Of a stretch of 64,000 bases of DNA, positions 32,529 through 62,976 are shown one piece after another. Origin of the DNA: Methanohalophilus sp. (GTDB taxonomy: Archaea > Halobacteriota > Methanosarcinia > Methanosarcinales > Methanosarcinaceae); NCBI RefSeq assembly GCF_030156785.1, contig NZ_JASGLW010000002.1:1-64000 (forward strand). The letters run 5' to 3'. A program made the position numbers and the translations under genes. The stretch's first letter is position 1. Each line of letters begins with the position of its first letter. The notes under the pieces are model-generated. The model had not been told where the DNA came from. It saw nothing but the letters and a program-made list of their open reading frames with translations, and did no database searches.

Positions 32529-33047
32529 ATGATCGAAGTAGAGGTCAAGGCGAGGCTTTCTCTTACCCGCGCAAGGGAAGTCTTAAAAGAACTTAAAGCA
32601 AAATTTGTGGAATCAGAGAAGCATTATGACATCTATTACAATGCTCCTCACCGCAATTTTGCCATAACAGATGAAGCCCTCAGACTTCGATTGGTAAACG
32701 GCCGTTCGGTTATGACTTACAAGGGTGAGAAACTGGATGACCTTACAAAGAGCCGAGAAGAGCTCCAGACCACAGTGGAATGGGATTCAACATAGGCAAT
32801 CTTGGATCGACTGGGTTTCACAAAAGCGGCAACAGTTGAAAAACTTCGCGATGTATATAAAGTAGGGGATATTACTGTTTGTCTCGATCAGGTAGACTCA
32901 CTGGGCGAATTTATTGAATTCGAACTGTTTTCAGAAAAAAGCATTGAAGAAAGCCGTGACAAGCTTTTTGAGCTTATGGAGAAATTTGGTTTGGGAGTAG
33001 ACGATTCCATCAGAAAATCTTATATGGAATTGGTGATGGGTGAATAA
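32529..33047 (+). CDS. CYTH-domain protein (class IV adenylate cyclase-like) with in-frame TAG
   Basis: Read across the TAG at 32793-32795, this is a 172-residue CYTH protein of normal length. The first part has the EVEVKARL signature, ALRLRLVNG and MTYKGEKLD; the second has LDRLGFTKAATVEKLRDVYK, VCLDQVDSLGEFIEFEL and IRKSYMEL. Both parts are in one frame with no shift, and the TAG falls at codon 89, between TTVEWDST and AILDRLGF, where relatives have a continuous helix. Pyrrolysine or suppression is likely; a nonsense mutation is the alternative. CYTH enzymes act on triphosphates such as ATP or thiamine triphosphate. The gene starts 4 bp after the DUF35 gene. Confidence 0.82.
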
Positions 33048-39721: not shown

Positions 39722-41344
39722 ATGAAAGGAAGTGACCTGTTTGTCAGGTGTCTGGAAAATGAAGGCGTAGAGTATATTTTTGGGATACCGGGAGAGGAAA
39801 CACTGGATTTTATGGATTCTCTTTCCAGATCAGACATCGAATTTATTGTGGTAAGGCATGAGCAGTCTGCAGCATTCATGGCAGATGCCTACGGACGTTT
39901 GGTGGGCAGGCCAGGAGTATGCCTTTCAACACTGGGGCCGGGCGCTACCAATCTCATAACAGGTGTTGCAGATGCGCATCTTGACAGAGCTCCTCTTGTG
40001 GCAATTACGGGGCAAGGCTCTCTTGACAGGGCATATAAGGAATCGCATCAGATTCTGGATGTTGTGGGATTATTCGACAAAATTACCTCATGGAATGCAA
40101 TCGCCACTGCTGCTCACCAGATTCCAGAGCTGGTAGGGAAGGCTTTTGACATAGCAACGGATGTACCGGGCGCTACCCATATTGAATTGCCTGAAGATGT
40201 TGCTTCGCAGGAAACCGACGCAATACCTCTTGAGAAAAAAAGTTACTCTCATTCCTGCAATTTCGAAGAAAATGAATTGCATAAAGCACTTGAAATGATT
40301 TCGGGAGCTTCAAAGCCATTAATCATCGCAGGAAACGGTGTGATTCGTGAAAACGCTTCTGCCGAGCTGGAACAGTTTGTAGATGCTTCGAATATAGGCG
40401 TTGTAACCACTTTCATGGGAAAAGGTGCAATCAGTGCAGACAATGATCATTTCATTGGTTCTATGGGTATGTCAGAGAAGGATTACATCATGTGCGGACT
40501 CGATGTGGCAGATGTTGTTATTACTGTGGGGTTTGATTCAGTGGAATACAGTCCTGATCACTGGAACAAAAGGGCTACCACAAAAATAATTCATGTACAC
40601 ACCAGGCATCCTGAAATAGAATCCAGCTACATACCCGAATGTGCGCTTATAGGTTCACTTAAGACAACTCTCAAAGCAATGCTTCATAAAATACATGCTA
40701 AGGAATTCCCGAAATATTATCGCAATATCAAGGTTTCCATGGAAAATGAGTTGCTTAATTACAGGGATGATCCGTCTTTTCCGATGAAGCCCCAGCGCAT
40801 TATCTGGGAAGTGCGACAAATTCTGGATCGGGGGGACATTCTGGTAAGTGACGTGGGCGCTCACAAACTCTGGATCGGGAGGCTGTATCCCGCATTTGCC
40901 CCGAATACAGTGCTGATGTCAAACGGGCTGGCTTCCATGGGCTTTGCCCTTCCTGCAGCAATAGCTTCCTGTCTTGTACATCCTGAAAAGAAAATAGTGG
41001 CAATTTCCGGAGACGCAGGATTCCTTATGAACCTGCAGGATCTGGAAACCGCTGTAAGACTGGATTGCGATCTTGTTATTGTTATTTTTGATGATTCATC
41101 CTATGGACTCATCGAGTGGGAATGCAACAGGGAATTTGGCTCTTCTTTTGGTACTACTTTCAAAAATCCCGACTTTGTGGAACTTGCGCATAGTTTTGGT
41201 GCTAGGGGTGTACGTGTGCGCAGCGCTAATGAACTGAGTAATATTTTTCAGGATGCTTTCAATGAGGGTGGCGTCTGGCTTGTGGATGTCCCGGTGGATT
41301 ACTCGGAAAATCTGAAGCTCACATCAATAATGGAAGGTAAATAG
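39722..41344 (+). CDS. Thiamine-diphosphate enzyme, acetolactate synthase large-subunit family
   Basis: The 540-residue product has the three ThDP-enzyme domains. The catalytic glutamate is in VVRHEQSAAFMADAYGR, the N-terminal domain ends near residue 180, and the ThDP-binding block is SGDAGFLMNLQDLETAVRL followed by FDDSSYGLIEWE. GDA replaces the common GDG. No small regulatory subunit is nearby, so it may be a catabolic or special-purpose enzyme working with the aldehyde dehydrogenase before it. The ATG at 39722 has AAGGG upstream. It ends in TAG, with TAA three codons later. Confidence 0.85.
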   Translation: MKGSDLFVRCLENEGVEYIFGIPGEETLDFMDSLSRSDIEFIVVRHEQSAAFMADAYGRLVGRPGVCLSTLGPGATNLITGVADAHLDRAPLVAITGQGSLDRAYKESHQILDVVGLFDKITSWNAIATAAHQIPELVGKAFDIATDVPGATHIELPEDVASQETDAIPLEKKSYSHSCNFEENELHKALEMISGASKPLIIAGNGVIRENASAELEQFVDASNIGVVTTFMGKGAISADNDHFIGSMGMSEKDYIMCGLDVADVVITVGFDSVEYSPDHWNKRATTKIIHVHTRHPEIESSYIPECALIGSLKTTLKAMLHKIHAKEFPKYYRNIKVSMENELLNYRDDPSFPMKPQRIIWEVRQILDRGDILVSDVGAHKLWIGRLYPAFAPNTVLMSNGLASMGFALPAAIASCLVHPEKKIVAISGDAGFLMNLQDLETAVRLDCDLVIVIFDDSSYGLIEWECNREFGSSFGTTFKNPDFVELAHSFGARGVRVRSANELSNIFQDAFNEGGVWLVDVPVDYSENLKLTSIMEGK

Positions 41345-60055: not shown

Positions 60056-60604
60056 ATGGTTGACATCGTTGTAAATTCATCTGAACGTATACGTAAAATG
60101 GTCTATGCTTCCCTGTTTGCATCAATGAGTTCAGTAGGGGCCTACATGGTAATCCCAATAGGTGGGCCGGTTCCGATAACCCTTCAGTTATTGTTTGTAT
60201 TCTTTGCGGGGGCATTCTTAGGTGCTCGTTGGGGTATGACCAGCATGCTTGTTTACCTTCTTCTTGGAATTGCAGGACTCCCTGTTTTTGCCGGAGGTGC
60301 AGCAGGGTTGGGTGTGCTTCTTGGTCCCACAGGTGGTTACTTGTTAGGATTTGTGGCAGCAGCCTATGTGATAGGTTATCTGGTAGAGCATTTCCCCACC
60401 AAATCATTTTTCCGTGTTTCACTCTATTTCCTTGCGGGAATGGTTACAATTTACGTATTTGGCTATCTGCAGCTTATTTATGTGGCATCCCTCACCCCCA
60501 AGGAAGCATTCATTATAGGGATAGCTCCGTTTATACTTCTTGATGCCATTAAGGCGATCGCTGCGGCCGTATTGTTTACACACTTGGATATGAGCTATGA
60601 TTGA
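60056..60604 (+). CDS. bioY: BioY-family biotin-binding S component of an ECF transporter
   Basis: BioY is the membrane S component that binds biotin. The 182-residue protein has five to six hydrophobic helices and the family motifs GGPVPITLQ, GARWG, and LLGPTGGYLLGF. It is followed by two ATPase genes and the T component, giving a complete ECF module. An upstream TTG at 60035 is open, but the TATA box position fits the ATG at 60056. The last eight bases overlap ecfA1. Confidence 0.93.
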   Translation: MVDIVVNSSERIRKMVYASLFASMSSVGAYMVIPIGGPVPITLQLLFVFFAGAFLGARWGMTSMLVYLLLGIAGLPVFAGGAAGLGVLLGPTGGYLLGFVAAAYVIGYLVEHFPTKSFFRVSLYFLAGMVTIYVFGYLQLIYVASLTPKEAFIIGIAPFILLDAIKAIAAAVLFTHLDMSYD

Positions 60605-61406
60605 AACAAAAAATCTGTCATTTCGGTATTCTGGGGATGATTACATCCTCAGGAATATAAATATTAAGATAACAACCGGTGAATATGTTGCAATTGTGGG
60701 GGAGAACGGTAGTGGTAAATCAACTCTGGCGCGACATCTCAACGGCTTGTTGATTCCTACTGAAGGTTCTGTGAACGTTTTTGGAATGAACACGGCTGAT
60801 AAATCCTGCTTGCAGCAAATCCGTCAGACAGTAGGAATGGTTTTTCAGGATCCAATGACACAATTTGTAGGTGCTACGGTTTGGGAAGACGTCGCTTTTG
60901 GGCCATCAAACCTCTGCTTTCCCCGGAAGGAAATGCTTGAAGCTATTGAGTCATCACTTGCAAGTGTTGGAATGGATATGTTCAAAAAGAGATCCCCTTC
61001 CCAGCTCAGCGGTGGCCAGATGCAGCTGGCTGCAATTGCAGGAGTATTGGCAATGAAACCAAAATGCCTGGTTTTTGATGAATCGGTTTCAATGCTTGAT
61101 TCAGATACCAAAGAAAAAATAATTTCCGTAATCAGAAAATTGCATTCCGAAGGAAAAACTATCATCCAAATTGCTCACAATCTGGATGAAATAAACCACG
61201 CTGAGAGGGTTATTGCTCTGAAAAACGGTGAGGTTTTCTATGACGGGAAAATGGAACCTTTTCTTGGAGATTAGATCTTCTGGGAAGCAGGTCTGGAAAT
61301 ACCTCCCATTATGGAACTTTCCCTGAGACTCAAGCAGGCAGGTATTGTTGAAAATATATCATGTGATGTGAATGTATTGGTGGAGGGCATATGCCGATTC
61401 AGGTAA
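60597..61406 (+). CDS. ecfA1: ECF transporter ATPase EcfA1, with in-frame TAG
   Basis: Reading across the TAG at 61272-61274 gives a 269-residue ATPase. Walker A is GENGSGKST, the Q-loop region FQDPMTQFVGATVWEDVAFG, signature LSGGQ and Walker B CLVFDES. The 43 codons after the TAG (codon 226), IFWEAGLEIPPIMELSLRL and onward, match the C-terminal segment (GL-x-x-P-x-x-x-x-L) found in other CbiO/EcfA proteins. They end in TAA at 61404 inside the start of ecfA2. If TAG were a stop, the ATPase would lack this segment and leave an odd 116-base gap. UAG decoding, probably as pyrrolysine, is likely. Confidence 0.85.
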
Positions 61407-62203
61407 AAAACATAAGCTTTTCCTATTCAAATGATAAACCGGTGCTATCCGGCATTTCTATTTGTCTGAACAGGGGTGAAGTCTCCGGGCTTATGGGAGA
61501 CATTGGTTCTGGCAAATCCACGCTTATCAGACATCTCAATGGGTTGCTACTACCAGATAGTGGGTTGGTTATAGTGGATGATATTCCTGCATCTAATAAA
61601 AAAGCCAGAAAGCTTGTTGGTGTTCTTTTCCAGCACCCTTCCAGACAGTTGTTTGAACAAACTGTTTTCGATGACATCGCATTCGGTCCGAAAAATTATG
61701 GTTTAAAAGGGAATGACCTCAAAAAAACAGTCTTTGAAGCTGCAGATCTTGTGGGTCTGGGAAAAGAGTTGCTTGATCTTTCACCTCACAGGTTGAGTGG
61801 TGGCGAGAAAAAACTTGCATGTTTTGCAGGTATAATTGCCTGTTCACCTCGCTATTTGATTCTTGACGAACCTTTCAGTGGATTGGATAGTGTTTCCCGA
61901 AGCAGGATGGTAAATAGCATTGTAAAGTTGAAAGCAAGTGGATGTGGGATTTTAATAGCATCCCATCATTTTGATACATTTGTCGGGTTAGTTGACAGGA
62001 TTCTATTCCTTGAAAATGGGGGAATTGTTTATGACGGATCTCCAGAGTCCTTTGCTTCAGATTACCCTTTGCAATCTTCCACAATTGCTGCATTGATTTC
62101 CGTATTGCAAAGAAAGGGTATAGACATATCTCCTACGGATTTCACAGTTGAAAAAGCATTTGAAGCAATTCTCTCTGCCTGTAAAAAGGAGGGCACTGGA
62201 TGA
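61391..62203 (+). CDS. ecfA2: ECF transporter ATPase EcfA2
   Basis: The 270-residue ABC ATPase has Walker A GDIGSGKST, Q-loop FQHPSRQLFEQTVFDDIAFGP, signature LSGGEKK and Walker B YLILDEPFSGLD. It pairs with EcfA1 to drive the T component. It is complete without any internal TAG. Its ATG overlaps the read-through end of ecfA1, has GGAGGG before it, and its stop overlaps ecfT (ATGA). Confidence 0.94.
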   Translation: MPIQVKNISFSYSNDKPVLSGISICLNRGEVSGLMGDIGSGKSTLIRHLNGLLLPDSGLVIVDDIPASNKKARKLVGVLFQHPSRQLFEQTVFDDIAFGPKNYGLKGNDLKKTVFEAADLVGLGKELLDLSPHRLSGGEKKLACFAGIIACSPRYLILDEPFSGLDSVSRSRMVNSIVKLKASGCGILIASHHFDTFVGLVDRILFLENGGIVYDGSPESFASDYPLQSSTIAALISVLQRKGIDISPTDFTVEKAFEAILSACKKEGTG

Positions 62204-62976
62204 GAAAATATGATTTTTTTGGGTTTGTTATAAGCAACTCATTTGTTCATAAACTAGATCCAAGAGCCAAGCTTTTTGCCCTTATTGGATTAAGCATTTT
62301 AATATTCAGGATATCGGCATTTCAGAATCTGCTTTTTCCTTTAACCATCTTCATTATGGCAGCATATTTTTCCGGGACATCGATAAAGAGACATGTTTTG
62401 TCTGTCCGTCCACTAATTCCGTTTCTTATTGCCATCTTCTTGTTCCATTTTCTGCTGACCCCGGGTCAGGAATCAATTGGATTCTAGTGTTTTTCGATTT
62501 CGATTGAAGGACTACTCAGCGGCTTCCTTGTGATAGGACGCTTTATTCTGCTGCTTCTTTTTGCTTCTCTCTTTTCAGCAACGACTTCTCCTGCAATGCT
62601 TGCGCAGGCAATTGAAGCAATTTTAAAACCAATCCCCGTCCACCGGCTGGGGGTGACAACTTCTGAAATTGCCACAATGATGGCATTATCAATGAATTTG
62701 TTTCCGCTTCTTTTGCATTATATGGAAGAAGTCAGGGATGCCCAGCTTTCAAGGGGTTTAGGAAATAAGTTCATGATATCCGGAATATTTTCTCTAATAA
62801 TTCCTTTTTTTTCAGGAAGCATGAGACTGGCAGATGATATCTCAGTTGCGATGGAAAGTCGATGCTATCATGGCGGGTTAAGAACACAACTCTATGAAAT
62901 GAAATATAAAAATACAGACTATGGCTTAACTGCTCTCACAGCCATAATATTATTGATGTCAGTTTTTTATTTATGA
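62200..62976 (+). CDS. ecfT: ECF transporter T component EcfT, with in-frame TAG
   Basis: Reading across the TAG at 62485-62487 (codon 96) gives a 258-residue protein, the normal EcfT length. Before the TAG are FVHKLDPRAKLFALIGLSIL and two helices; after it are IEGLLSGFLVIGRFILLLL, TTSPAML, and the two coupling motifs EVRDAQLSRGL and MESRCYHGGLR that bind the ATPases. All key motifs lie on the distal side, so a stop at TAG would give a useless protein. The frame is unbroken otherwise. Pyrrolysine or UAG suppression is likely. Confidence 0.85.

Follow-up and report, generated by a model that had tools for sequence, protein, structure and literature searches.

In Methanosarcinaceae, UAG is decoded as pyrrolysine (Pyl) by means of the pylTSBCD genes, in MtmB, MtbB and MttB, and no obligatory cis element is involved. 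In the archaea of the 'Pyl code', reportedly described by Kivenson et al. in Science in 2025, TAG is said to be a general sense codon. Insertion of Pyl is a competition with the release factor for which no mRNA motif is needed, and nearby second stops follow terminal UAGs in Pyl archaea (PMC9499178). In pyl archaea UAG serves both as sense and as stop codon; the amber codon of a foreign uidA gene was read at 20–30% in M. acetivorans (PMC2933860). The gain of Pyl in a single species has been described for Thg1 of M. acetivorans and attributed to 'neutral evolution' (Heinemann et al. 2009, as far as that work is discussed in PMC2933860). A near-neutral gain of in-frame TAG has also been proposed for other candidates (PMC3639795).

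The window analysed here is a stretch of 64,000 bp (positions 1 to 64,000 of contig NZ_JASGLW010000002.1) from Methanohalophilus sp., hereafter G000. It contains an operon with the gene order bioY-ecfA1-ecfA2-ecfT, all four genes of which were confirmed by Pfam. Within these four genes the only in-frame stops are one TAG in ecfA1 (at 61272) and one in ecfT (at 62485). The features of the operon, all on the + strand, are:

60056-60604, +, bioY, the biotin ECF S component (Pfam BioY PF02632, E 2.3e-42; frame check); ends in TGA (60602-60604) with an 8 nt overlap with ecfA1.
60597-61406, +, ecfA1, full-length frame of 269 codons with UAG at codon 226 (TIGR04520 ECF_ATPase_1).
61272-61274, +, TAG in frame, putative pyrrolysine codon; the nearest relative, G005, has GAA here.
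61275-61403, +, 43 codons after the TAG, the ECF-type C-terminal helical segment (HMM, neutral simulation, pN/pS, model helices, fold alignment).
61382-61386, +, GGAGG, a Shine-Dalgarno-like sequence ahead of the ecfA2 ATG at 61391 (sequence reading).
61391-62203, +, ecfA2, the second ECF ATPase (Pfam ABC_tran PF00005, E 1.6e-24); ends in TGA with a 4 nt overlap with ecfT.
61404-61406, +, TAA, the true end of ecfA1 (frame check).
62200-62976, +, ecfT, with TAG at 62485-62487 (codon 96; CAC in G005); Pfam CbiQ PF02361 (residues 13-225) spans the TAG.

The tRNA, synthetase, biosynthesis genes and codon are the same as those used for MtmB, MtbB and MttB. In contrast to these, EcfA1 is no methylamine methyltransferase, and its TAG, which relatives do not share, lies in a variable loop instead of an active site. 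The case resembles Thg1, in which an in-frame TAG was likewise gained by one species in an ordinary conserved gene with a sense codon in relatives. However, Pyl was seen in the Thg1 protein and is predicted here, and many genes are affected here, two of them in one operon. The known EcfA1/CbiO ATPases of ECF transporters (5x3x, 4huq, 8bmp) also consist of an ABC core followed by a C-terminal helical segment, but the present frame requires UAG decoding.

The first-pass annotation had described ecfA1 as continuing past its TAG for 43 codons, to a TAA that lies 16 bases inside ecfA2, and this layout was confirmed at 61272-61406. The junction overlaps in the operon (8, 16 and 4 nt) hold only if ecfA1 ends at this TAA; an end at the TAG would put 116 bases between ecfA1 and ecfA2. 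EcfA1 contains a Walker A motif (GENGSGKST), LSGGQ, a Walker B motif (LVFDES) and the ECF-type C-terminal segment. Downstream of the TAG the protein reads IFWEAGLEIPPIMELSLRLKQAGIVENISCDVNVLVEGICRFR, in which GLEIPP is the G-L-x-x-P element. Against TIGR04520 the full-length protein scored 310.9 bits, 4 bits below the cut-off of 315, and the protein cut at the TAG scored 295 bits.

The 43 codons that follow the TAG are genuinely coding. A profile HMM was built from 29 orthologues with G000 itself left out, and it matched the segment after the TAG with E = 6.8e-16 (best of 2000 shuffles: 0.57), in agreement with the first-pass claim that a conserved part of EcfA/CbiO ATPases follows the TAG. 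G005 belongs to the same genus, its EcfA1 is 75% identical and its ecfA1 frame is uninterrupted. In comparison with this relative, pN/pS was 0.23 upstream of the TAG and 0.315 downstream, a sign of purifying selection on the tail, so that the codon-level conservation check proposed in the first-pass annotation had a coding outcome. The substitutions after the TAG were distributed over codon positions 1, 2 and 3 as 12, 5 and 20, and as many synonymous changes were seen in just 6 of 20000 neutral simulations. The final 16 bases also encode ecfA2, so a small share of the constraint is joint. Openness of the frame by itself is unremarkable (47% of simulations were free of TAA and TGA), and the codon-usage score of the 43 codons alone was not significant (LLR 6.2; 7–10% of genes ending in TAA or TGA have downstream extensions that score >6). 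Neither of these two measures would by itself have revealed the coding status.

A structure model of EcfA1 had a mean pLDDT of 88, with values of about 70–80 in the tail. It predicts tail helices at residues 237-247 and 258-268 and places the TAG residue in a loop between two helices. The model aligned over residues 1-269 with CbiO and EcfA chains (5x3x, Z 33.1, rmsd 2.3 over 269 residues; 4huq, Z 32.2, rmsd 2.8 over 267; 8bmp, Z 32.2, rmsd 2.6 over 267). With most other ABC ATPases it aligned only up to about residue 220–240, the MetN type and a few others with C-terminal domains of their own being aligned further. Based on this difference in alignment length, the modelled tail is the C-terminal helical part that is typical of ECF/CbiO ATPases and missing from most other ABC ATPases.

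The genome encodes a tRNA-Pyl with anticodon CUA, and pylS, pylB, pylC and pylD lie in one cluster adjoining the tRNA-Pyl gene. All four proteins scored above the NCBIfam cut-offs (672.7, 536.5, 461.1 and 358.9 bits for PylS, PylB, PylC and PylD, respectively). MtmB, with TAG at codon 202, matched PF05369 in full length across the TAG (1-450/450). A single, full-length aRF1 is present. It has retained the NIKS and YxCxxxF motifs, so some termination may still occur at 61272.

TAG usage was surveyed in stretches of G000 (452 kb, the window among them), G005 (720 kb) and a third genome, G002 (80 kb); the genome-wide figures are therefore sample-based. In the 452 kb, 381 open reading frames have 100 aa or more; TAG terminates 9 of them, several of which are interrupted genes. 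Of 186 conserved genes for which G005 has an orthologue, one ends in TAG. The true interruptions in conserved genes, in ecfA1, ecfT and the genes for a CYTH protein, hydantoinase A and an HTH-TOBE regulator, are all TAG. Under random single-step nonsense mutation, given the codons that are one step away from each stop, the chance of five out of five is about 0.005. The ecfT part after the TAG had a pN/pS of 0.207 in comparison with G005. Besides ecfA1 and ecfT, the following genes contain an internal TAG:

32529-33047, +, CYTH/CyaB-like gene, in-frame TAG at 32793-32795 (CAG in G005); Pfam CYTH 1-179/179 across the TAG; pN/pS after the TAG 0.122.
G000:C9:205514-206278 (L151:5514-6278), mtaC, methanol corrinoid protein, in-frame TAG; NF040655 2-253/253, 436.9 bits.
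L144:9533-10093, HTH-TOBE regulator, internal TAG (E in G005).
L151:12114-14042, hydantoinase A, internal TAG.
L159:7726-8733, metallo-beta-lactamase-fold protein; match spans the TAG weakly (E 7e-6).
L157:7680-8372, -, FkbM methyltransferase; domain match spans the TAG.
L147:7999-8616, MTS methyltransferase; domain match spans the TAG.

The CYTH/CyaB-like gene is under purifying selection on both sides of its TAG. The mta genes have been stated to carry no amber codon (PMC3941956). Including MtmB, the genes containing TAG number about ten per 452 kb; extrapolated to 1.55 Mb, this would amount to some 35 genes. In-frame TAGs are also present in G005, in different genes. One of these (G005:C1:98444-99553, L173:18444-19553, minus strand) is a nitrogenase-component-like gene by reading, with TAG after codon 228 and a coding score on both sides. 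Four TAA and two TGA 'interruptions' in the census were rejected by eye, as they either preceded an ATG at the N-terminus of the match or fell in short, poorly aligned matches. One of these cases was located just upstream of pylD, whose family match begins at MALL. A TAG in the CYTH match of another genus (g4) was the stop of the upstream gene.

Some TAGs are probably real ends. A 551-codon open reading frame (thiamine-diphosphate-enzyme-like by reading) ends in TAG at 41342-41344 with TAA three codons on, and a near-tandem TAG and second stop were also found in two other genes, on contig C6. pylB of G000 ends in TAG (G000:C9:39361-39363, about L113:14362-14364), as it does in 17 of 21 loci of the Methanosarcinaceae type from eight genera (relatives: L217-L237). 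In the same loci pylS and pylC end in TAA or TGA, never in TAG where readable, and in the majority a single base separates the pylB TAG from the ATG of pylC (TAGnATG). No pylB match of real strength was obtained in genus g4 (two genomes searched). The pylB end has been given as an example of a UAG stop, being TAG in M. mazei, M. acetivorans and M. burtonii and TAA in M. barkeri (PMC2933860). The 39-codon extension after the pylB TAG is not coding-like in that frame. In view of pylB and the three genes with TAA or TGA three codons on, UAG is probably not exclusively sense in this genome. The rarity of TAG stops and the scatter of TAG through ordinary genes are shared with the 'Pyl code' archaea; by comparison, some terminal TAGs seem to persist here.

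Four features can be read from the DNA itself: the 43 codons are coding, the Pyl machinery is encoded, true interruptions are restricted to TAG, and TAG is seldom used as a stop. Taken together they indicate that the ecfA1 TAG is very likely read as pyrrolysine, UAG being a usable sense codon in this Methanosarcinaceae-type archaeon. At 61272, in the loop that joins the ABC core to the ECF-type C-terminal helices, a codon that is GAA (glutamate) in G005 would have drifted to TAG. The UAG would be decoded by Pyl-tRNA(CUA) charged by PylS, in competition with the canonical aRF1. The main functional product would be an EcfA1 of 269 residues that carries Pyl at position 226 and terminates at the TAA within ecfA2. 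Because aRF1 should still compete, some truncated EcfA1 is likely, and this product of 225 residues would probably arise as a by-product. Pyl as the residue at 226, the efficiency of readthrough and the absence of selection for the short product are what we infer from these data.

The pylB end raises a wider idea, in which UAG would act as a sensor of Pyl supply: the two UAGs in the operon would tie complete biotin uptake to Pyl, and the UAG of pylB would give feedback on pylC. With much Pyl-tRNA, ribosomes would pass the pylC start (readthrough of pylB would take them 12–42 codons beyond it), and with little they would stop at the UAG and reinitiate. No mention of a feedback role for the pylB UAG was found in the literature; this feedback is an idea of the present analysis. 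We consider it possible, and the sensor as a whole unlikely.

The first-pass annotation had suggested that the UAG could set the ratio of two forms of EcfA1. In a rival reading of this kind, the UAG would have been selected so that the supply of Pyl determines the ratio of short to long EcfA1 and, together with ecfT, biotin uptake. Two of the four genes in one operon do have TAG, competition with the release factor is expected to yield some short product (PMC9499178), and only with readthrough does the ribosome leave ecfA1 just where ecfA2 begins. However, ecfA2 has its own GGAGG, so coupling to ecfA1 is not required. In a search of 59 other genomes no best ecfA1 match contained an internal TAG, and neither did the best ecfT matches in the relatives searched. 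The residue aligned with the TAG varies (P, V, E, S, I, A, G, D or L). No hairpin was found after the ecfA1 TAG (z +1.8; 197 of 200 shuffled sequences gave a fold of equal or greater stability), and a PYLIS-type element, which would be a stable hairpin in the roughly 100 nt that follow the UAG, is absent, the folding energy being weaker than that of the shuffles. Since TAG recurs in many unrelated genes, gene-specific regulation need not be invoked. A functional ratio of two forms thus found no support here, a conserved regulatory switch at the ecfA1 TAG is not supported, a lineage-specific one being conceivable, and we regard such a two-form gene as very unlikely. A TAG that is private to the species and located in a variable loop suggests near-neutral drift of an available sense codon.

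A plain nonsense mutation, with the TAG as true stop, a truncated EcfA1 and the conserved tail as a recent relic, would be compatible with the canonical aRF1 and with the finding of the TAG in this genome alone. Against it, the parts after the TAG in ecfA1, ecfT and the CYTH gene all have a low pN/pS, although a recent mutation could be younger than most of the divergence being compared. Moreover, conserved genes are interrupted exclusively by TAG, never by TAA or TGA, and MtmB, which requires readthrough, is intact. Such a mutation is highly improbable. A sequencing or assembly error, conceivable in a draft genome of 19 contigs, is hardly credible given about ten genes in 452 kb with TAG and coding support on both sides, and an error has no reason to prefer TAG over TAA, TGA or frameshifts.

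With the ecfA1 UAG read as pyrrolysine, the gene is longer than the standard code says. Such decoding is a known phenomenon, to which ecfA1 adds one more case, and several other genes of G000 are affected as well. Under standard gene calling, about ten genes in 452 kb are cut at TAG, so the proteome would be misannotated. The genes cut in this way include two of the four from one transporter operon, ecfA1 and ecfT. An ABC ATPase and its membrane partner are thereby added to the likely Pyl proteins beyond methylamine metabolism. If Pyl is required for full-length EcfA1 and EcfT, biotin uptake would depend on the Pyl pathway in this species.
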